A stretch of 64,000 bases of DNA from Bacillus sp. UNC438CL73TsuS30 (GTDB lineage Bacteria > Bacillota > Bacilli > Bacillales > Cytobacillaceae): NCBI RefSeq assembly GCF_000482325.1, contig NZ_AXVA01000013.1, forward strand, positions 62,001 through 126,000, written 5' to 3'. This document shows, piece by piece, positions 3,620 to 55,006 of the stretch. A program made the position numbers and the translations under genes. Under the pieces are notes generated by a model that saw only the letters and a program-made list of their open reading frames with translations, was not told the DNA's origin and searched no databases. The stretch's first letter is position 1. Each line of letters opens with the position of its first letter.

Positions 3620-4452
3620 TGTTTTCCTCCATAAAGACCTTGAAGTTCTTCTTCTTTCATTGTAAAGGAGTGTTGATCTTCCGGGAATTTGTTCGATTTA
3701 ACCTCTTCGGTATAGGCTTGGATTGATTCCGTAATAAATGGATCAAGATTTGAATATTTCTTTACAAACTTAGGTACCCGTTCAACTCCATACCCTAAGA
3801 CGTCATGATATACAAGGACTTGTCCATCTACATTTTGCCCTGCACCTATCCCAATCACTGGAATGTTCAATTCTTTTGAAACCTCATGTGCAAGCTGCTT
3901 TGGAACACATTCTAAAACAACGGCAAATGCACCTGCACGTTCACACTCTCTTGCATCTTCAAGCAATTTAATCGCTGCATGGGCATCTTTGCCCTGAACC
4001 TTATATCCGCCTAATACGCCTACAGATTGTGGTGTTAACCCTAAATGGGCACAAACCGGGATTCCAGCCTTGGTAAGGGCAGCTATTTTTTCAATAACAT
4101 CATCTGCTCCTTCAATCTTTACCGCATGTGCACCTGTTTCTTGAATCAATCTCCCGGCATTTTTCAGGGTTTCATGAAGGGACAGATGATACGTTAAAAA
4201 CGGCATATCAGCGACAATAAAGGTGTCTTTGGCTCCACGTTTAACCGCTTTTGTATGGTGGATCATGTCATCAAGGGTTACGGGGATTGTAGAGTCATAA
4301 CCGAGGACAACCATACCCAATGAGTCCCCAACTAATATGATGTCTACTCCTCCTTGCTCGGCATGTTTAGCGGAAGGATAATCATAGGCCGTTAACATGA
4401 CAATTTTTTCTCCGTTTTGTTTCATTTTCAGAAAATCAGTCGTTTGCTTCAT
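3616..4452 (-). CDS. panB: 3-methyl-2-oxobutanoate hydroxymethyltransferase
   Basis: PanB transfers a hydroxymethyl group from methylene-tetrahydrofolate to 2-oxoisovalerate to form ketopantoate. Recognisable segments are [22 protein letters not shown] and [18 protein letters not shown]. The frame is open further upstream, but the start is set at ATG 4450-4452: GGAGG lies 7 bases ahead of it, the product (278 residues, [11 protein letters not shown]) matches the family, and the upstream extension overlaps a leader terminator. A second ATG one codon earlier is possible. First gene of the pan operon, behind a structured leader. Confidence 0.96.
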
Positions 4453-13611: not shown

Positions 13612-13645
13612 AAAAAAGCTGACGAAACCGCCAGCTTTTTTTATT
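13612..13645 (-). terminator. Terminator of qcrABC
   Basis: The stem AAAGCTGGCG/CGTCAGCTTT (one mismatch) is followed on the minus strand by a T run just after the qcrC stop. Confidence 0.8.
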
Positions 13646-13652
13646 TTTTCTA

Positions 13653-14426
13653 TTATTTTTCTCCAAGACCTGAAATAAATTCAGTAAGCTGTTTAAGTTG
13701 TTCGTCATTACCTTTGAAGATACCTTTTGGCATTGCACCTTTACCATTTTTTGCGATATTTGCAATTTCTTCTGGTTTTAAACCAGTGGCAGTTAGTGCT
13801 GGTGCTCCTGCACCGCCTTGAAGGTTTTCCCCATGACAGTTAATACAGCCTTGGCTTTTAAATACTTCATATCCAGGATTTGACTTATCAATTTCAACTT
13901 TCGCCACAATTTTACCTTGACGCTCCGCAGCAGCCCAGTCATGAGTAGCAACTGATTGCCATGTTAAAAATACCGTAGCAGCTAATGCAAGCAACATAAT
14001 CCCTGTTGCAAACGGACGTCTTAATGGACGACGCTCCGGACCATTGTCCAAGAATGGAGCCAATAATAATCCTCCGAAGGCAAGGCCTGGAATAACTAAA
14101 GCTCCGATAACCGTGTATGGACCTGAAGCATATGAGTACTTCAGTAATTGATATAAAAAGAGGAAGTACCAGTCCGGTAATGGAATATAGCCTGTATCAG
14201 TCGGATCCGCAATTCTTTCTAGCGGGGCCGGGTGTGCAATTGTTAAACATAAAAAACCGACAAGGAATACTGCCCCAACCATCCATTCTTTTAATAGAAA
14301 GTTAGGCCAGAATGCTTCTGTTTTACCAGGATATTCTGAGTAATCCTTTGGCAGCATTTTTTTACGTGCCTCTGGTGCTACTACACGTGAGTCACCTACG
14401 AATTTCATACCTTTACCTTTATGCAT
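13653..14426 (-). CDS. qcrC: Menaquinol:cytochrome c reductase, cytochrome b/c fusion subunit
   Basis: This bc-complex subunit joins the C-terminal part of cytochrome b (three membrane spans, with the PLPDWYFLFLYQLLKY segment) to a cytochrome c domain. The haem c site CINCH is near residue 193, and the likely axial methionine lies in GKGAMPKGIF. It passes electrons from menaquinol to cytochrome c at the membrane. At 257 residues it is the expected length, and it ends the qcrABC operon. Confidence 0.96.
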   Translation of the reverse strand: MHKGKGMKFVGDSRVVAPEARKKMLPKDYSEYPGKTEAFWPNFLLKEWMVGAVFLVGFLCLTIAHPAPLERIADPTDTGYIPLPDWYFLFLYQLLKYSYASGPYTVIGALVIPGLAFGGLLLAPFLDNGPERRPLRRPFATGIMLLALAATVFLTWQSVATHDWAAAERQGKIVAKVEIDKSNPGYEVFKSQGCINCHGENLQGGAGAPALTATGLKPEEIANIAKNGKGAMPKGIFKGNDEQLKQLTEFISGLGEK

Positions 14427-46639: not shown

Positions 46640-47512
46640 TCACCTTCCATAATGCCATGGGAACATTTTTCTAATTGCCACTTTTAAGATTAAATCAGAA
46701 AGTAAACCCAATAATCCGATAGTCAAAATACCAAAAATAATATTTCCGGTTTTTAACATTCGCTGAGACTCTAAAATCAAGCTCCCTATGCCAGAAGATG
46801 AGGCAACAAGTTCTGCGACAATAATGTATGACCATGCCCATCCTAGAATCAGCCGGATTATTTCCATAATACCCGGAATGGAAGCAGGAAGGATGACGGA
46901 ACGCAGTACTCCGAATCTTGTTCTCCCTAGTGTATAGGCTGCTTCTAAAAGCTCTCGTCGAACATTCGCTACCTCAACAGCAGTCATAAGAACTAAGGAG
47001 AAGAAGGTTCCAACGAAAATAATCGTAATTTTCTCCAATTCTCCCACACCAATCCATAAAATAAAGAGCGGGATAAATGCAGATGCCGGCATGTATCGAA
47101 TGGAGGAAATGACTGGTTCAAAAAATGCCTCCACTACTTTAAATGTTCCCATCAAGATACCAAGTGGCAGTCCTACCAGGACAGCAACAATAAAACCAGC
47201 AAGCACTCGATAAATCGTAATCGCTATATCATTAATAAACCCATATTCGGTAAATAAGGTTATACCCGAATCGATAATTTGGGTAGGGTTTGGTAGAAAT
47301 AGCGGATCTACCAAACCTCCATAAGTTAACAACGACCAAATAGCAAACAAAAAAACTATACTTGAGATGCTAATCCCTAAATACAATTTATAGGGTATAT
47401 TTACCTGGGGCTGAAGCCATTTTCTATTTATGGGTGATCCATTTCGTTCATTTTGAAATGGATCTGTGGATGACTTCTTAACTAATTCCTCGTTTTTCAC
47501 CACTTTTTCCAC
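46640..47512 (-). CDS. NitT/TauT-family ABC transporter permease
   Basis: A 290-residue SsuC/TauC-like membrane component with about six spans after a hydrophilic N terminus of roughly 40 residues. The cytoplasmic EAA loop (LLEAAYTLGRTRFGVLRSVI) that contacts the ATPase is present. It lies between the binding-protein gene (15 bases) and the ATPase gene. Confidence 0.9.
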   Translation of the reverse strand: MEKVVKNEELVKKSSTDPFQNERNGSPINRKWLQPQVNIPYKLYLGISISSIVFLFAIWSLLTYGGLVDPLFLPNPTQIIDSGITLFTEYGFINDIAITIYRVLAGFIVAVLVGLPLGILMGTFKVVEAFFEPVISSIRYMPASAFIPLFILWIGVGELEKITIIFVGTFFSLVLMTAVEVANVRRELLEAAYTLGRTRFGVLRSVILPASIPGIMEIIRLILGWAWSYIIVAELVASSSGIGSLILESQRMLKTGNIIFGILTIGLLGLLSDLILKVAIRKMFPWHYGR

Positions 47513-47526
47513 AGAACTCCTCCTCT

Positions 47527-48525
47527 TTATTGCACAAATGAGTAGTCAATAATTTCATCAATATTCGGCTCATTATCGATTAATTTTTGCTGTTTCCAAA
47601 AATCCGCGCCTAATTTTGAGAGTTCATGTAATGGTCCAGGATGATCCTTCGTTCCAAAGTATTTTTTATTTCCCGCCTCATCGTAAAACTGCACACCCTG
47701 CAATGACTCTTCTAATTCTTTTGGAGATTGCCCCATTGCTTTACCCATAATTTTCAATGCATCTTCCTTATTTGTTTTATAGTACTCGACTGCCTCAAAC
47801 CAAGATTTTACTAAAGCTTTTACCGCTGTTGGGTTTTCTTTAGTGAAATCTTTTCTCATGGCAATCGTACTAGTAATAACGCCCGGGGAAGCAGCACTAG
47901 TCATTAATACACTTCCAAAATTAGTGTGTTTTGCTTTTGTTAACCACGGCTCCCAAGTAACAGCTGCATCTACTTTATTCGCCACGAATGCTGCACCTGC
48001 ATCTCCAGCCGTCATGTTTTGTGCATCAACATCTTTAAAATCAATTCCCTCTTGCTTTAATAAATAAAGGAACCAAAAGAAGCTTGCCCCGCCGTCTGTC
48101 TGAACAGCGACACGCTTACCTTTCAAATCTTTCAAACTCTTAATTTCCTTCTTTGCTACAATCCCATCCCCGCCATGAGAATCATCGAGCGCAACCACCT
48201 GAACAACCGGGACATTACTAGCTGCTGTTACCACATGAGTGTCTACAGTGGAAGCAAATCCCTGTAGGCGGTTTGCAGCAAGTGCTGTTCTGCGATCCGT
48301 ATTACTTTCCATTTTCATCAAATTAACATTAACGCCATTCTTTTTGAAAAATCCTTTTTCCTGTGCAATGTATAGCGGAGAATACCCAACCCAAGTGGCC
48401 ACGCCCAAATTAATAACATCATTCTTTGCTGATTCCTTGTTTTCAGACTTGGTGCTAGCGGTCCCGGAACATCCTGTCATGGCTAGTAATAAAATAATGA
48501 ATACTATCAACCCAAATTTTCTCAT
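47527..48525 (-). CDS. NitT/TauT-family ABC transporter substrate-binding lipoprotein
   Basis: A 332-residue SsuA/NMT1-type periplasmic-fold protein with a lipoprotein signal (LLAMTGC, Cys19) and the mature start VINLGVATWVGYSPLYIAQEKGFF. Relatives bind sulfonates, nitrate, or pyrimidine thiamine precursors; the ligand here is not evident. First gene of the importer operon, 162 bases downstream of gnd on the same strand, with no clear terminator between. Confidence 0.88.
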   Translation of the reverse strand: MRKFGLIVFIILLLAMTGCSGTASTKSENKESAKNDVINLGVATWVGYSPLYIAQEKGFFKKNGVNVNLMKMESNTDRRTALAANRLQGFASTVDTHVVTAASNVPVVQVVALDDSHGGDGIVAKKEIKSLKDLKGKRVAVQTDGGASFFWFLYLLKQEGIDFKDVDAQNMTAGDAGAAFVANKVDAAVTWEPWLTKAKHTNFGSVLMTSAASPGVITSTIAMRKDFTKENPTAVKALVKSWFEAVEYYKTNKEDALKIMGKAMGQSPKELEESLQGVQFYDEAGNKKYFGTKDHPGPLHELSKLGADFWKQQKLIDNEPNIDEIIDYSFVQ

Positions 48526-48687: not shown

Positions 48688-50103
48688 TTACTTTAAATTC
48701 CACACCGTATGGAAACTTCCTTCCCGATCAACACGCTGATATGTGTGTGCACCAAAATAGTCTCTTTGGGCTTGAATAAGATTCGCTGGTAATGTTTTTG
48801 TCCGATAACTGTCATAGTAGGCTAATGCACTTGAAAATGCCGGTACTGCAACACCTTGCTCGATGGATAGTGTAACCACTTGTCTTAGAGCAGATTGATA
48901 GTTTTCCACAATGTCTTTAAAATAAAAATCTAGTAATAAGTTAGGTAGATTAGGATCCCGATCATAAGCATCTTTAATTTTTTGTAAAAATTGTGCCCGA
49001 ATAATACAACCGCCCCTAAAAATCATGGCAATATCTCCATAGCGGAGATTCCAGTCATATTCTTCTGATGCTGAACGCATTTGAGCAAACCCTTGTGCAT
49101 ACGAACAAATTTTACTCATATATAATGCCTTCCGCACAGCTTCAATTAGCTCTTCTCCATTACCTTCAAACTTTCTTGTTTCCGGACCATTTAATATCTT
49201 GCTTGCCTTAACTCGTTCATCTTTCATTGCGGATATATAGCGGGCAAACACAGATTCCGTGATAATTGGAAGCGGAACACCTAAATCCAAGGCACTTTGA
49301 CTTGTCCATTTACCAGTACCCTTTTGACCTGCTGCATCTAAAATAATGTCAACTATCGGTTTACCTGTTTCATGATCCATCTTCGTAAATATATCAGCGG
49401 TAATCTCGATTAAATAACTATCTAATTCACCCTTGTTCCATTCTGCAAAAACCTTATGGAGTTCTTGGGCTTGTAGTCCAAGGACATGTTTCAAAATAAA
49501 ATATGCTTCAGAGATTAGCTGCATATCCCCATATTCGATTCCGTTATGCACCATTTTTACATAATGTCCGGCGCCATCCGGTCCAATATAGGTACAGCAA
49601 GGATCTCCGTTTACTTTTGCGGAAATGGCTTCAAAGATTTCTTTTACCAATTCGTATGCAGCTTTTTGGCCGCCAGGCATAATGGAAGGACCTTTCAACG
49701 CCCCTTCTTCTCCACCAGAAACACCTGTTCCAATAAAATGGACACCTATTTCTGCCAATTCCTTATTCCTCTTAATCGTATCCTGGAAAAATGTATTACC
49801 GCCATCAATGAGAATATCCCCCTTCTCAAGGAAAGGTTTTAAAGAATTGATGATGGCATCTGTTGGTGCACCAGCTTTGACCATTAATATAATTTTCCGC
49901 GGACTTTCTAAGGACTCAACGAATTCTTTAATTTCATAAGTCCCAACAAAATTCTTGCCCTCTGCTTCACTCTTTAAAAACTCTTCTGTTTTTTCTGAAG
50001 AACGGTTATACACGGATACCGAGTAACCTCTACTTTCAATATTTAATGCGAGGTTTTTTCCCATAACCGCTAAACCAATTACCCCAATTTGATTCTTTAC
50101 CAT
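48688..50103 (-). CDS. gnd: 6-phosphogluconate dehydrogenase (decarboxylating)
   Basis: Oxidatively decarboxylates 6-phosphogluconate to ribulose-5-phosphate and CO2. The 471-residue protein has [40 protein letters not shown] and [18 protein letters not shown] 50101-50103 with AAGGA 5 bases ahead is preferred over upstream in-frame ATGs. It is the last gene of zwf-pgi-gnd, and returns ribulose-5-phosphate to the hexulose phosphate synthase encoded nearby. Confidence 0.95.
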
Positions 50104-50130
50104 TTCCATCCTTCCTTTCATATATTTCGC

Positions 50131-51462
50131 TTATAACCTAGACTCAAGCTCTTTCTTTTCCTTTTCAAAGCCTGGTTTTCCAAGTAACGCAAACATATTC
50201 TTTTTGTAAGCTTCAACACCTGGCTGATCATAGGGATTTACACCTAGAAGATGACCACTAATCGCACACGCCTTCTCGAAAAAGTAAATCATTTCACCAA
50301 TGGTAAATTCATTAATTTCATCTAGTTCTACAATTAAGTTTGGGACCCCGCCATCAATATGAGCTAATACAGTACCTTGAAATGCTTTTTTATTGACTTC
50401 ATCCATTGTCTTTCCAGCAAGGAAGTTTAACCCATCAATATTTTCTATGTCACTTTGAATCAACCATTCTACCTTAGGTTTTCTAATCTGTATAACCGTT
50501 TCAATTAAATTTCGTCTGCCTTCCTGCACATATTGACCCATGGAATGCAGATCAGTTGAAAAATCAACTGCTGCTGGAAAAAGACCTTTCTGATCTTTCC
50601 CTTCACTTTCCCCAAACAGCTGCTTCCACCATTCTGCTACAAAATGCATTGATGGTTCGTAATTAACCAATAATTCGATTTCTTTGCCTTTGTTGTAAAA
50701 AGCATTACGAACAGCCGCATATTGATAACATTCATTGGTTAAAAGCTCCGGGTTGTTAAATCTATGGTAGGCCTCTCTAGCCCCTTCCATTATGCGGTCG
50801 ATATCCAATCCAGCTGTGGCAATAGGCAAAAGGCCGACTGCAGTCATTACAGAGTACCTTCCACCTATATCATCAGGAATGACAAAAGTTTGATATCCTT
50901 CTTCGTCTGCAAGCTTTTTTAAGGCACCCTTTGCTTGATCAGTGGTAGCAAAAATCCGTTTTCTTGCCTCTTCCTTTCCATAGCGTTTCTCCATATAGTT
51001 ACGGAAAATGCGGAAGGCCATCGCCGGTTCTGTCGTTGTACCAGATTTAGAGATGACATTTATCGAGATTTCCTTTCCTTCCAAGTGCTCTAATAAATCG
51101 GAAATGTAAGTAGCACTAATATTATGACCGGCATAATAAATTTGGGTATTCCCTTCCATTTGGTTATGAAAGGTATGGGACAAAGCATCAATTACTGCCC
51201 TTGCACCCAAATAAGAACCGCCAATTCCAATGACAATCAGAGCATCGGAATTTTTCCGTATCCAACCTGCAGCTTCCTTTATTCGCTCAAATTCTTCTTT
51301 ATCATAAGTAATTGGCCAATCTACCCATCCAAGAAAGTCAGATCCGGGTCCGTGTTTTTCATGTAACATGGTATGGGCTGTTTTCACAAACTCACTTAAA
51401 TGTTCCACTTCATTTTTTTTCATAAATGATAATGCCTTGGTGTAATCAAAAGAAATTGCCAT
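50131..51462 (-). CDS. pgi: Glucose-6-phosphate isomerase
   Basis: Interconverts fructose-6-phosphate and glucose-6-phosphate. The 443-residue protein shows [30 protein letters not shown] and the catalytic glutamate region [14 protein letters not shown] 51460-51462 is set behind GGAGGAG; the frame runs a few codons further. It lies between zwf and gnd, 27 bases from gnd. In this context it feeds formaldehyde-derived fructose-6-phosphate into the oxidative branch. Confidence 0.95.
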
Positions 51463-51521
51463 ATTAATCTTCTCCTCCCACAAAAAAATGTATATATATC
51501 AAATTGGCGATCGAAAAATAT

Positions 51522-53051
51522 TTACCACCAATGAAATCCATCCTTAGCTAATAATTGATGGGCCTCAACCGGCCCCATTGAACCCGACTGATAATGGTGC
51601 AACGGGAGGATGTTCTCTTCAAATGCTTCCAAAATGGGTTGTACCCACTTCCAAGATAATTCCACTTCATTCCAATTAGTAAAGAAAGACTGGTCGCCGC
51701 GCAGGGCATCAAAAATTAACATTTCATAAGCTTCCGGGACATTTTTTTCTGTAGATACGAAATCCACTGTAAAAGGCTCTATCTTCCCATTATTTAATGG
51801 ATTTTTACTATTCAGCTGGAAGGAAACACCTTGATTCGGACTAATCTCTATCATTAAAAGATTTGGGGGTGTTTCTTCATTTCGATCCATGTATAAACTT
51901 TTGATCGGATTTTTATATTCAATTACAACCCTTGTCGATTTGTCCTGCATTCTTTTACCTGTACGAATATAAAATGGGACGCCTCCCCAAAAAGCATTAT
52001 CAATCCACAAACGAGCAGCTATAAATGTATCACTAGTGGAAGAATCTCGAACCCCTGGTTCTTCTTGATATCCTACAACCGGGTCACCATCAATTTCTCC
52101 TGCAACATATTGGCCACGTATTACATTTAAACCCACATCACCTTTTTGTAATGGTCTTAATGATTCAATAACCTCCCTTTTTACATTTTGAATTTCTTTA
52201 GTGTCCATTTGGTTAGGTAGGTGCATGGCTGTCATCATCAAAATTTGCAGCATATGATTTTGGAACATATCTCGAATTGCCCCCGCCTGGTCATAATAGC
52301 CCGCCCTCTCTTCTACCCCAACTGTTTCACTTGCTGTTATTTGGACATTTGCAATGTGTTTGTTGTTCCATAGGGTTTGCAGGACTGGATTAGCAAATCC
52401 TAACGCCTCTAAGTTCTGGACCATTGGTTTTCCAAGATAATGATCTATCCGAAAAATTTCCTCCTCTTGAAAGGCTTTACTTAATTTTTCATTAAGGATT
52501 CTTGCCGACTTCAAGTCATGTCCAAACGGCTTTTCAATGATGAGACGTTTCCAGCCTTTTGATACATCGAGTCCACTTTCCTTGATATTGGTTGTAATGA
52601 CATCAACAAATTTTGGTGCAACTGATAAATAAAAAAGACGATTTTCCGGAATATTGAACTCTTCTTCGTGTTTTTGAATGGCATCGATTAACGTTATATA
52701 CCCACTTCTATTCGTGACATCTAAAGAGCAAAAATGAAATAAACGGAGAAACTCTTCCGTCTTGGCAGTATCATTGTCAAAACGTCTAGAAAACGTTTCC
52801 AAAGATTCTTTTACATAATTTTGAAATACTGCATCTGACCAATCCCTCCGCCCTATTCCAACAACAGAGAACGAGTTAGGCATTTTTTTATCTAAAAATA
52901 AATTATAAAGCGCAGGGTATATTTTCCGCTTTGCTAAATCTCCCGATGCCCCAAATAGAACAAAGGTCATCGAGTCCAGTTTCAATTCCTTAAAGTCATC
53001 GTGAGCATTCTCTTCAAAATAAACGTCGCGATGAATTGTTACGTCATTCAT
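51522..53051 (-). CDS. zwf: Glucose-6-phosphate 1-dehydrogenase
   Basis: Oxidises glucose-6-phosphate to 6-phosphogluconolactone. The 509-residue protein has the coenzyme loop LFGASGDLAKRKIYPALYNL and the active-site RIDHYLGKPMVQN. GGAGGG precedes the ATG. First gene of zwf-pgi-gnd, divergent from hxlR. No 6-phosphogluconolactonase gene is in the cluster. A candidate HxlR site overlaps its -35 box. Confidence 0.96.
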   Translation of the reverse strand: MNDVTIHRDVYFEENAHDDFKELKLDSMTFVLFGASGDLAKRKIYPALYNLFLDKKMPNSFSVVGIGRRDWSDAVFQNYVKESLETFSRRFDNDTAKTEEFLRLFHFCSLDVTNRSGYITLIDAIQKHEEEFNIPENRLFYLSVAPKFVDVITTNIKESGLDVSKGWKRLIIEKPFGHDLKSARILNEKLSKAFQEEEIFRIDHYLGKPMVQNLEALGFANPVLQTLWNNKHIANVQITASETVGVEERAGYYDQAGAIRDMFQNHMLQILMMTAMHLPNQMDTKEIQNVKREVIESLRPLQKGDVGLNVIRGQYVAGEIDGDPVVGYQEEPGVRDSSTSDTFIAARLWIDNAFWGGVPFYIRTGKRMQDKSTRVVIEYKNPIKSLYMDRNEETPPNLLMIEISPNQGVSFQLNSKNPLNNGKIEPFTVDFVSTEKNVPEAYEMLIFDALRGDQSFFTNWNEVELSWKWVQPILEAFEENILPLHHYQSGSMGPVEAHQLLAKDGFHWW

Positions 53052-53136: not shown

Positions 53137-53166
53137 AGTATAATTTAGTTATAAATGTTATGTAAG
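53137..53166 (-). promoter_or_regulatory. Promoter of zwf-pgi-gnd with activator site at the -35
   Basis: On the minus strand CTTACA, 18 bases, TATACT. The 41-bp repeat (53164-53204) ends inside the -35, the geometry of an activator-dependent promoter. The hxlA promoter has the same arrangement. Confidence 0.6.
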
Positions 53167-53204
53167 TACGCACTTTAAACACATATAGTTACAAAATGTA
53201 TACC
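53164..53204 (-). promoter_or_regulatory. Candidate HxlR operator 1 (zwf/hxlR divergent region)
   Basis: A 41-bp element, inverse copy of 53671-53711. They share 17 identical bases (AAGTACGCACTTTAAAC) followed by one mismatch, CATATAGT, an 8-base variable spacer and GTATACC: 36 of 41 positions match by eye. B. subtilis HxlR is known to bind two sites of about 25 bp upstream of hxlA. Confidence 0.7.
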
Positions 53205-53229
53205 ATTAGGAAAATCAGGAGGTATAAAA

Positions 53230-53601
53230 ATGGGTCATATTTGTGGAAAAACATATAACTGTGAAAAGGAATTAACACTTGGAATTATTGGAGGTAAATG
53301 GAAAATGCTTATCATGTGGCATTTAGGGAAGGAAGGAACCAAACGATTTAATGAATTAAGGTCACTAATTCCTGAAATTACACAAAGGATGCTGGTAAAC
53401 CAATTACGTGAGCTCGAAGAAGATCTTATTGTTTCAAGAAAAGTTTATCCTGTTGTTCCACCTAAAGTGGAATATTCTCTTACAAATCACGGCGAAAGCT
53501 TAATGCCCATTCTTGAGTCAATGTATGTTTGGGGAAAAAACTATATGGAGAATGTCATAGAAATTCCAGAACCATTGAGAAAATCTATGAAAAAAACTTA
53601 A
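53230..53601 (+). CDS. hxlR: HxlR, formaldehyde-responsive transcription activator
   Basis: A 123-residue winged-helix regulator of the HxlR family ([54 protein letters not shown]). In B. subtilis HxlR activates hxlAB when formaldehyde cross-links Cys11 and Lys13 within a helix; the same residues stand here in NCEKELTL (Cys11, Lys13). This supports a formaldehyde-sensing role. AGGAGG precedes the ATG. It lies upstream of hxlAB in the same direction and is divergent from zwf. Confidence 0.93.
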
Positions 53602-53605
53602 ATCT

Positions 53606-53646
53606 AAAAAACCACATGCAGCTGATATGCAAATGTGGTTTTTTTA
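53606..53646 (+). terminator. Terminator of hxlR
   Basis: AAACCACAT...ATGTGGTTT stem with a T run, directly after hxlR. It makes hxlAB dependent on its own promoter. Confidence 0.8.
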
Positions 53647-53670
53647 TTCTCTTCAATCTTGTCTCCTCTA

Positions 53671-53711
53671 GGTATACTTTTTAACACTATATGAGTTTAA
53701 AGTGCGTACTT
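53671..53711 (+). promoter_or_regulatory. Candidate HxlR operator 2 (upstream of hxlA)
   Basis: Second copy of the 41-bp element, inverted relative to the first so that GTTTAAAGTGCGTACTT points toward hxlA, as the other copy points toward zwf. Confidence 0.7.
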
Positions 53712-53738
53712 CCCTTTTCTAAAAGTCAAATCTAAAAT
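53709..53738 (+). promoter_or_regulatory. Promoter of hxlAB
   Basis: CTTCCC, 18 bases, TAAAAT. The -35 is very poor, as expected for an activator-dependent promoter, and overlaps the end of the repeat exactly as at zwf. Confidence 0.55.
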
Positions 53739-53789: not shown

Positions 53790-54431
53790 ATGGAACTACA
53801 ATTAGCTTTAGATCTTGTTAATATCCCAGAAGGTATCGAGGTGGTAAAGGAAGTAGCAGAGCATATTGATATCGTCGAGATTGGTACACCTGTTGTCATT
53901 AATGAAGGGCTTAGAGCAGTAAAAGAAATTAAACAAGCCTTTCCATCTTTACAAGTTTTAGCCGATTTGAAAATTATGGATGCAGGTGCCTACGAAGTAA
54001 TGAAGGCTTCAGAAGCCGGTGCTGATATTATCACTGTTCTTGGTGCTACAGACAATTCAACCATTAAAGGTGCTGTAGAAGAAGCAAGAAAACAAGGTAC
54101 CAAAATCCTTATCGATATGATCAATGTTAAAAATTTAGAACAACGGGCCAAAGAAGTGGATGAATTAGGTGTCGATTATATTTGTGTACACACAGGCTAT
54201 GACCTTCAAGCTGCTGGAGAAAGCCCTTTTGAACAGCTTCAAACCATTAAGCGCGTTGTAAAAAATGCAAAAACAGCTGTTGCAGGCGGCATTAAATTAA
54301 ATACATTGCCTGAAGTTGTACAATCCCAGCCAGACCTTGTGATTGTCGGTGGCGGTATTACGGGCCAAGAGGATAAAAAAGCAGTAGCTGCCAAAATGGA
54401 AGAATTAATCAAAGAAAAAGCTCATGCATAA
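53790..54431 (+). CDS. hxlA: 3-hexulose-6-phosphate synthase
   Basis: Condenses formaldehyde with ribulose-5-phosphate to 3-hexulose-6-phosphate, the entry reaction of the RuMP pathway. The 213-residue TIM-barrel protein of the OMP-decarboxylase superfamily shows MELQLALDLVNIPEG, LADLKIMDAGAYE with the catalytic lysine and aspartates, and VAGGIKLNTLPE. It is 8-17 bases upstream of hxlB. Confidence 0.96.
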   Translation: MELQLALDLVNIPEGIEVVKEVAEHIDIVEIGTPVVINEGLRAVKEIKQAFPSLQVLADLKIMDAGAYEVMKASEAGADIITVLGATDNSTIKGAVEEARKQGTKILIDMINVKNLEQRAKEVDELGVDYICVHTGYDLQAAGESPFEQLQTIKRVVKNAKTAVAGGIKLNTLPEVVQSQPDLVIVGGGITGQEDKKAVAAKMEELIKEKAHA

Positions 54432-54448
54432 AAAGGAAGATGAGTCAT

Positions 54449-55006
54449 ATGCAAACGACTGAATTCTTAAGTGAAATTATTCGAGAGTTACATCATACTT
54501 CTTCCTTAATCGCAGATGAAGATGCTGAAAAGTTAGTAAATACTATTTTTGAATCTAACAAAATTTTTGTAGCTGGAGCAGGACGGTCTGGATTTATGTC
54601 CAAATCCTTTGCAATGCGGATGATGCACATGGGGATTGATGCCTATGTGGTCGGGGAAACTGTGACAGCAAACATGGAAAAAGATGATTTATTAATTATT
54701 GCATCCGGCTCAGGGGAAACAAAAGGTTTGGTTTCAATAGCTGAGAAAGCTAGGAAAATTGGCGGAAAAGTCGCTGCTGTAACAATTTATCCTGATTCAA
54801 CGATTGGAAGTTTAGCTGATTTTGCTGTTAAATTACCCGGGGCCCCAAAAGACCAGTTCGAAAGTGACTTTAAAACCATTCAGCCGATGGGATCATTATT
54901 TGAACAAACACTTTTGTTATTCTTTGATGCCGTTATTCTAAGATTTATGAACAAAAAAGGTCTCAATTCTCAGACAATGTATGGAAAACATGCAAATCTT
55001 GAATAA
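54449..55006 (+). CDS. hxlB: 6-phospho-3-hexuloisomerase
   Basis: Isomerises 3-hexulose-6-phosphate to fructose-6-phosphate. A SIS-domain protein with VAGAGRSGFMSKSFAMRMMHMG, IASGSGETKGL and KTIQPMGSLFEQTLLLFFDA. ATG 54449, giving 185 residues as in B. subtilis, is preferred over ATG 54440, which is only 2 bases from the purine-rich site. Together with pgi, zwf and gnd it completes a cycle oxidising formaldehyde to CO2. Confidence 0.95.
   Translation: MQTTEFLSEIIRELHHTSSLIADEDAEKLVNTIFESNKIFVAGAGRSGFMSKSFAMRMMHMGIDAYVVGETVTANMEKDDLLIIASGSGETKGLVSIAEKARKIGGKVAAVTIYPDSTIGSLADFAVKLPGAPKDQFESDFKTIQPMGSLFEQTLLLFFDAVILRFMNKKGLNSQTMYGKHANLE

Follow-up and report, generated by a model that had tools for sequence, protein, structure and literature searches.

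The sequence analysed here, hereafter the window, comprised 64,000 nt of the genome of Bacillus sp. UNC438CL73TsuS30. Within it, gnd, pgi and zwf run leftward, followed by hxlR and then by hxlA and hxlB running rightward (Table 1). The five genes hxlA, hxlB, zwf, pgi and gnd co-occur in the window and all scored above the NCBIfam cut-offs. Each enzyme of the leftward operon has a counterpart elsewhere in the genome: the other zwf (C8:182273-183721) is 45% identical to the window copy, while a further PGI frame and a further gnd were found on C13 and C3, respectively. Folding of 53602-53652 revealed a terminator-like hairpin between hxlR and hxlA, which a pattern scan with a restricted loop did not report, and hxlA thus probably needs a promoter of its own. 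An automatic terminator call at 53454 falls within hxlR and was not used. Behind gnd lies an SsuA/TauC-like ABC transporter (46640-48525), as also in loci L019 and L251; at a guess, its substrate could be a formaldehyde-yielding sulfonate.

Table 1. Coordinates of the features discussed, in the window unless pBM19 is named
Feature	Position	Strand	Evidence or remark
gnd, NADP-dependent 6-phosphogluconate dehydrogenase	48688..50121	-	TIGR00873/NF006765
pgi, glucose-6-phosphate isomerase	50131..51483	-	NF010697; the real start may be an ATG within the frame
zwf, glucose-6-phosphate dehydrogenase, second dedicated copy	51522..53051	-	TIGR00871
-10 of zwf, TATACT, 18 bp past the -35	53137..53142	-	offset +22 also in 130 of 141 distinct sites
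Poor -35 of zwf, CTTACA, sharing the last 3 bases of the box	53161..53166	-	
Predicted HxlR box of the zwf promoter, 41 bp, directed at zwf	53164..53204	-	all-site profile 46.5 bits
hxlR, DUF24/MarR-type regulator with Cys11 and Lys13	53230..53601	+	PF01638; PDB chains of B. subtilis HxlR, E 5.6e-57
Terminator-like hairpin and T run between hxlR and hxlA	53606..53644	+	12-bp outer stem, -15.4 kcal/mol, z -4.5
Predicted HxlR box of the hxlA promoter, 41 bp, directed at hxlA	53671..53711	+	all-site profile 56.1 bits
Poor -35 of hxlA, CTTCCC	53709..53714	+	
-10 of hxlA, TAAAAT	53733..53738	+	
hxlA, 3-hexulose-6-phosphate synthase	53790..54431	+	TIGR03128
hxlB, 6-phospho-3-hexuloisomerase	54440..55006	+	TIGR03127
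Predicted HxlR boxes of pBM19 (L195) with a -10 at +22, ahead of glpX and rpe	13641-13681 and 4109-4149		

The regulator of the window matched the winged helix-turn-helix family PF01638 at 128.1 bits, above the cut-off, and is one of three PF01638 genes in the genome; the only NCBIfam matches at 1e-5 were RrpB and RrpA, both far below their cut-offs. Alignment with the PDB chain of B. subtilis HxlR placed Cys11 and Lys13 in the stretch NCEKEL (residues 10-15). The PDB includes this protein together with a form with Ala at position 13. Both residues were present in 87 of the 88 HxlR copies of the 79 loci described below, and the match of the 88th, in L020, begins at residue 13, past Cys11. In B. 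subtilis, the published HxlR binding regions are named BRH1/BRH2, and the HxlR-hxlAB system of this species was reportedly described by Yurimoto in 2005. As shown in PMC7835342, formaldehyde links Cys11 to Lys13 in the B. subtilis protein, makes it bind DNA more tightly and switches on an hxlAB reporter. The accessible parts of three papers (PMC8879981, PMC4776306, PMC7835342) name hxlAB (hps-phi) as the only target of HxlR, and a regulon including zwf may be recorded elsewhere in print or in databases.

The original prediction described the 41-bp boxes ahead of zwf and hxlA as inverted copies of each other. Indeed, the reverse complement of the zwf box and the hxlA box agreed at 36 of 41 bases, including a run of 17 consecutive bases, GTTTAAAGTGCGTACTT. 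After dinucleotide-preserving shuffling of the two intergenic regions, the best ungapped 41-mer never exceeded 28 identities in 300 trials (mean 23.2, sd 1.2). The promoter geometry was also as described: the end of each box overlaps a poor -35 hexamer, formed by the last three bases of the box and the next three, and a -10 hexamer follows at 18 bp. CTTACA, ahead of zwf, agrees with TTGACA at four of six positions. A search of the 5.6-Mb genome, which had been proposed at the same time, found the 26-base pattern ACTATRTRNNNNNAAAGTGYRTACTT perfect only at the two window boxes; with up to 3 mismatches there were 5 matches versus 2 for the backward pattern. The shorter pattern TTAAAGTGCGTACTT occurred without mismatch at three sites, namely the two boxes and C12:126978, and with 2 mismatches at 8 more, the backward control giving 25 at that level. 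Two sites with 3 mismatches (C1:1221623 and C10:42618) were rejected, being at the level of the backward control.

For the comparison across relatives, we used 79 loci with HxlR relatives, the best 79 of 192 found, on each of which zwf, pgi, gnd, hxlA and hxlB were located. For the test with the hxlA-box profile described below, zwf and hxlA genes had to be 60% identical or better, to match at the N terminus and to have 200 bp or more of sequence ahead of them. An all-site profile was seeded by the two window boxes and refined on the upstream regions of these same loci, so that its scores there are partly circular. Across the 79 loci it gave 160 sites scoring over 12 bits, and the reversed loci gave none; in the window nothing apart from the two boxes scored above -5 bits. 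A second profile was therefore held out: it was built from 61 distinct hxlA boxes and run on 450-bp regions upstream of those zwf genes of the 79 loci that are at least 60% identical to the window copy. A box directed at zwf was found in 25 of 28 regions (median 35 bits). This profile also recognised a box in all 66 hxlA upstream regions, but those were its own training regions. Built from the hxlA boxes of other genomes, this profile gave 48.1 bits for the zwf box of the window, and the hxlA-box profile gave 57.9 bits for its hxlA box. The three misses were L025 and L036, where a frame for an iron alcohol dehydrogenase separates the box from zwf, and L048, where the box lies 577 bp ahead of the zwf frame. 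The same profile found no box in the 28 reversed zwf upstream regions (maximum -9.2 bits). Because the loci were fetched via HxlR, linked cases are over-represented and the loci are not independent of linkage; 30 loci of the genus with a housekeeping zwf were therefore used as a negative set, and they contained no box by the held-out profile (maximum -11.7 bits). Together with the shuffling and the rarity of the pattern in the genome, these results led us to reject a chance similarity of the two boxes.

In a survey of the genus, 51 of 61 genomes had a pattern match with at most 2 mismatches, and the matches totalled 154, paralogue-type sites included, versus 2 backward. A housekeeping zwf at 83% identity or more was present in 60 of the 61 genomes, G002 having only copies of 47-49%. 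Among the hxlA-type loci of the genus, 24 of 30 had a box; there was none at five loci with hxlA at 49% identity or less, and none within the fetched stretch of L112 (hxlA 74% identical). L201, a plasmid labelled Stenotrophomonas with hxlA, had no box either. The box accompanied zwf in several arrangements. For example, zwf was divergent from hxlR in the window, L019, L023 and L042, downstream of hxlR in L063, L066 and L077, and divergent from hxlA with no intervening hxlR in B. methanolicus (L235), L250 and L252; a zwf-gap arrangement occurred in L239, L244 and L246, and plasmid cassettes in L163, L164, L196 and L199. The closest relative by hxlA (94% identical; L251:6845-8205 and L020) lacks zwf and pgi, its gnd is shortened and its hxlR lacks the first residues including Cys11, which looks like a single deletion.

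The third perfect site of the shorter pattern, C12:126978, was rejected as a further HxlR target and is likely the operator of an HxlR paralogue. It scored 27.5 bits in register, its distal part deviates from the HxlR box, and it sits between an MFS gene and the paralogue (L001:1438-1884), which is 54% identical to HxlR and carries Ile and Val at the positions equivalent to Cys11 and Lys13. Of 28 genus loci examined, seven (L140, L141, L148, L150, L155, L158 and L160) had a like site between an MFS gene and a paralogue 85-89% identical to this one. The probable operator of the paralogue, a protein with neither Cys11 nor Lys13, shares the core AAGTGCGTACTT, indicating that cross-talk is possible.

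The consensus of the box, read from the refined profile, was RGTATAYTTTTTNACACTATRTRANAATAAAGTGCGTACTT, and the promoter-proximal core AAGTGCGTACTT is palindromic at 10 of 12 positions. Promoter geometry was analysed in sites of at least 25 bits with 45 downstream bases, which were made distinct and to which the two window boxes were added. The resulting 141 sites lie ahead of hxlA (66), zwf (24), gnd (3), hxlR (2) and other genes (46). A -10-like hexamer started exactly 22 bases past the box in 130 of them, the runner-up among 39 offsets reaching 47; by target, the hexamer was at +22 in 65/66 sites for hxlA, 22/24 for zwf and 38/46 for other genes. The -35 hexamers were poor, 105 of 141 sites agreeing with TTGACA at three positions or fewer. 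A fixed spacing from box to -10 combined with a poor -35 fits the needs of an activator that would touch the polymerase at the -35. Furthermore, of 267 distinct sites, 46 had an additional ACTATRT unit on the upstream side at a distance of exactly 19 bp and seven had one at 38 bp, with at most one site at any other offset and a maximum of 4 in the reversed control. In the extended sites, many of which precede zwf, an AGTATAC-like cap sits outside the additional unit. These exact offsets make the box a lattice stepping by 19 bp; neither of the two window boxes has an additional 19-bp unit.

It had also been proposed that hxlR, which begins just beyond the zwf box, may be autoregulated, and this gained indirect support from hxlR copies at which no mapped gene diverges within 450 bp. 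The median score of the 44 such copies was 18.8 bits for the hxlR-side half of the box and -1.7 for the far half, compared with 26.9 and 30.0 in the 44 copies with a divergent mapped gene; these half-box scores are partly circular, since the profile was trained on the same loci. Among the copies without a divergent mapped gene, 15 kept the near half alone (hxlR-side half at least 15 bits, other half below 12), 12 kept both halves, some of them ahead of other targets such as glpX, and 17 had neither, with no box above 0 bits within 130 bp. On the hxlR strand the cap reads TATACT-like, at a distance of about 32 bp from the hxlR start codon. With TAAACA-17-TATACC (8/12), the hxlR promoter of the window would lie within the zwf box; the hxlR-side half probably covers this promoter as well. 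The survival of the half-box and the placement of the cap thus suggest HxlR autoregulation, which could be of either sign.

From these comparisons we consider it very probable that both boxes are HxlR operators through which formaldehyde-bound HxlR would activate hxlAB and zwf-pgi-gnd as one cycle. Judging from its conserved residues, the HxlR of the window would be bridged by formaldehyde between Cys11 and Lys13 and thereby gain affinity for DNA. Dimers would then fill the 41-bp box, whose promoter-proximal palindrome ends on the defective -35, and the bound protein may aid RNA polymerase in using the -10 located 18 bp further on. Both operons would be switched on simultaneously. HxlAB converts formaldehyde and ribulose 5-phosphate to fructose 6-phosphate, while the products of zwf-pgi-gnd take fructose 6-phosphate via glucose 6-phosphate and 6-phosphogluconate back to ribulose 5-phosphate, releasing CO2 and reducing equivalents. 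If HxlR acts on both operons, one sensor would induce a complete cyclic formaldehyde oxidation (the dissimilatory RuMP pathway) from a dedicated second gene set. The original prediction of one activator driving both operons agrees with the comparative results: the box points at this type of zwf in several arrangements, including those where hxlR does not adjoin, and at none of the 30 housekeeping loci, its distance to the -10-like hexamer is fixed, and HxlR keeps its sensor residues. The proposal that HxlR would control the whole cycle is likewise favoured, but its restriction to this organism was too narrow, because other genera and plasmids show the arrangement as well.

The zwf-side box could instead serve hxlR alone, with zwf using another promoter and its proximity being incidental. 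The box of the window ends only 25 bp ahead of the hxlR start codon, box and hxlR lie a median of 32 bp apart with or without a divergent mapped gene, and the near half alone survives in 15 of 44 copies lacking such a gene. However, a box with its -10 at +22 is directed at zwf where hxlR is not adjacent (L063, L066, L077, L235, L250 and L252), and the target-side half that decayed in those 15 copies is intact in the window, where the whole box scores 46.5 bits; we therefore regard this explanation as improbable. A recent local duplication that left a functionless copy at zwf seems even less likely, very remote in fact: it would account for 36 of 41 identical bases within one 600-bp stretch, but the similarity falls off at the edges of the box, the zwf box is conserved across genera, and zwf/hxlA box pairs occur in other genera and on plasmids.

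Alternatively, HxlR or a paralogue might repress both promoters until formaldehyde lifts the repression. An overlap with the -35 would suit a repressor as well, the MarR/DUF24 family is described, in the accessible part of one paper, as one of repressors (PMC4776306), and the genome has three PF01638 genes, with the same core in the probable operator of the paralogue. However, HxlR of B. subtilis is a positive regulator and binds DNA more strongly when formaldehyde is present (PMC7835342). The poor -35 hexamers at 105 of 141 sites are what activation predicts, and the probable operator of the paralogue is found again next to an MFS gene at seven genus loci of the 28 examined. Repression is thus about as improbable as a box serving hxlR alone, and activation of both operons by formaldehyde-bound HxlR remains the preferred reading.

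The boxes were not limited to these two operons. A nitrilase-like carbon-nitrogen hydrolase stood directly behind boxes in a cluster of 15 sequences, and another one, in L242, scored below the cut-offs of the nitrilase-type models. Behind the hydrolases at L242 17030-17914, L246 8860-9762 and L248 11584-12447, the next gene was GNAT-like by eye; the L242 copy of that gene had no NCBIfam match. Boxes also preceded a class II fructose bisphosphatase (5 sequences, the L239 copy matching TIGR00330), an iron alcohol dehydrogenase and a class II fructose bisphosphate aldolase, while a glyceraldehyde-3-phosphate dehydrogenase followed behind zwf. On pBM19 (NC_005328), the distance from box to gene was about 85 bp for glpX and about 205 bp for rpe, and the two boxes scored 46.3 and 45.0 bits, compared with -0.1 on the reversed plasmid. 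At mdh of pBM19 no box exceeded 0 bits, and glpX and fba are 593 bp apart, so that box control there may or may not extend to fba and tkt. On the B. methanolicus chromosome, hps-phi is divergent from zwf with one box each and no intervening hxlR.

Priestia and B. subtilis SRCM102749 have plasmids with cassettes of hxlR, hxlAB, zwf, gnd and pgi; a Cytobacillus plasmid has an annotated zwf, and gnd and pgi were detected there as pieces by tblastn. Among the plasmid cassettes L163, L164, L196 and L199, gnd and pgi are fragmentary in L163, three lie near an alcohol dehydrogenase gene, and L163 and L196 are beside spore germination genes.

The HxlR relative located in B. methanolicus (L290:8603-9331), a genome assigned to this species through its match to pBM19, is a fused tandem protein in which His and Tyr replace Cys11. 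The fusion also occurs in a sister genome, there with Arg and Tyr at the Cys11 positions; a search of the sister genome G143 gave the fused protein as the sole HxlR match at E ≤1e-40. Head-to-tail fusions in one frame (about 225 aa), resembling a single-chain dimer, were seen at L290:8603-9331, L236:6426-7106 and L237:4580-5251. Those of L290 (His/Tyr) and L236 (Arg/Tyr) have no Cys11 in either half and keep Lys13; that of L237 has Cys11 in its first half, and the gene diverging from it encodes an iron alcohol dehydrogenase and has a box (36 bits). Taken more broadly, HxlR is rather likely to be the master formaldehyde-responsive activator of RuMP metabolism in many Bacillales, acting via a 19-bp-step lattice operator on hxlAB and zwf-pgi-gnd and, in methylotroph-like strains, on glpX, fba, rpe, gap and alcohol dehydrogenase, including glpX and rpe of pBM19, with the sensor of B. 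methanolicus replaced by a covalently fused HxlR that lacks Cys11. If true, the lattice would permit a graded occupancy by multiple dimers.

The regulator family is already known; what is new concerns the regulon and the operator. YybR, YodB and YtcD are sensors of electrophiles or oxidants. These DUF24/MarR proteins of solved structure belong by sequence to the same family as the window protein; however, the latter has the Cys-x-Lys pair of HxlR, and HxlR is its nearest solved relative. The window resembles the HxlR-hxlAB system of B. subtilis in its Cys11-Lys13 regulator and in the predicted control of hxlAB, and it differs in having a box ahead of a dedicated zwf-pgi-gnd operon as well. A conserved box at that position would make HxlR the switch of the entire formaldehyde-oxidising cycle. 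In L165, which has an HxlR sharing 95% identity with the B. subtilis stretch used, the hxlA box scored 23.1 bits with a weaker distal part and TAGAAT at +22. There hxlR is divergent from hxlA, whereas in the window hxlR lies between two boxes and a terminator-like hairpin precedes hxlA. Fixed geometry and 19-bp units may furthermore offer a design rule for formaldehyde-inducible promoters. The RuMP genes of B. methanolicus share the geometry of box and -10, both on pBM19 (ahead of glpX and rpe) and on the chromosome (ahead of hps and zwf). The RuMP genes of pBM19 are methanol-induced, according to the accessible part of PMC4342826, and the glpX and rpe boxes are a direct candidate explanation for part of this induction. 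However, HxlR of the window is a single-domain protein with Cys11 while the relative located in B. methanolicus is a fused tandem without it, which prompts one to ask how this species senses formaldehyde or methanol.
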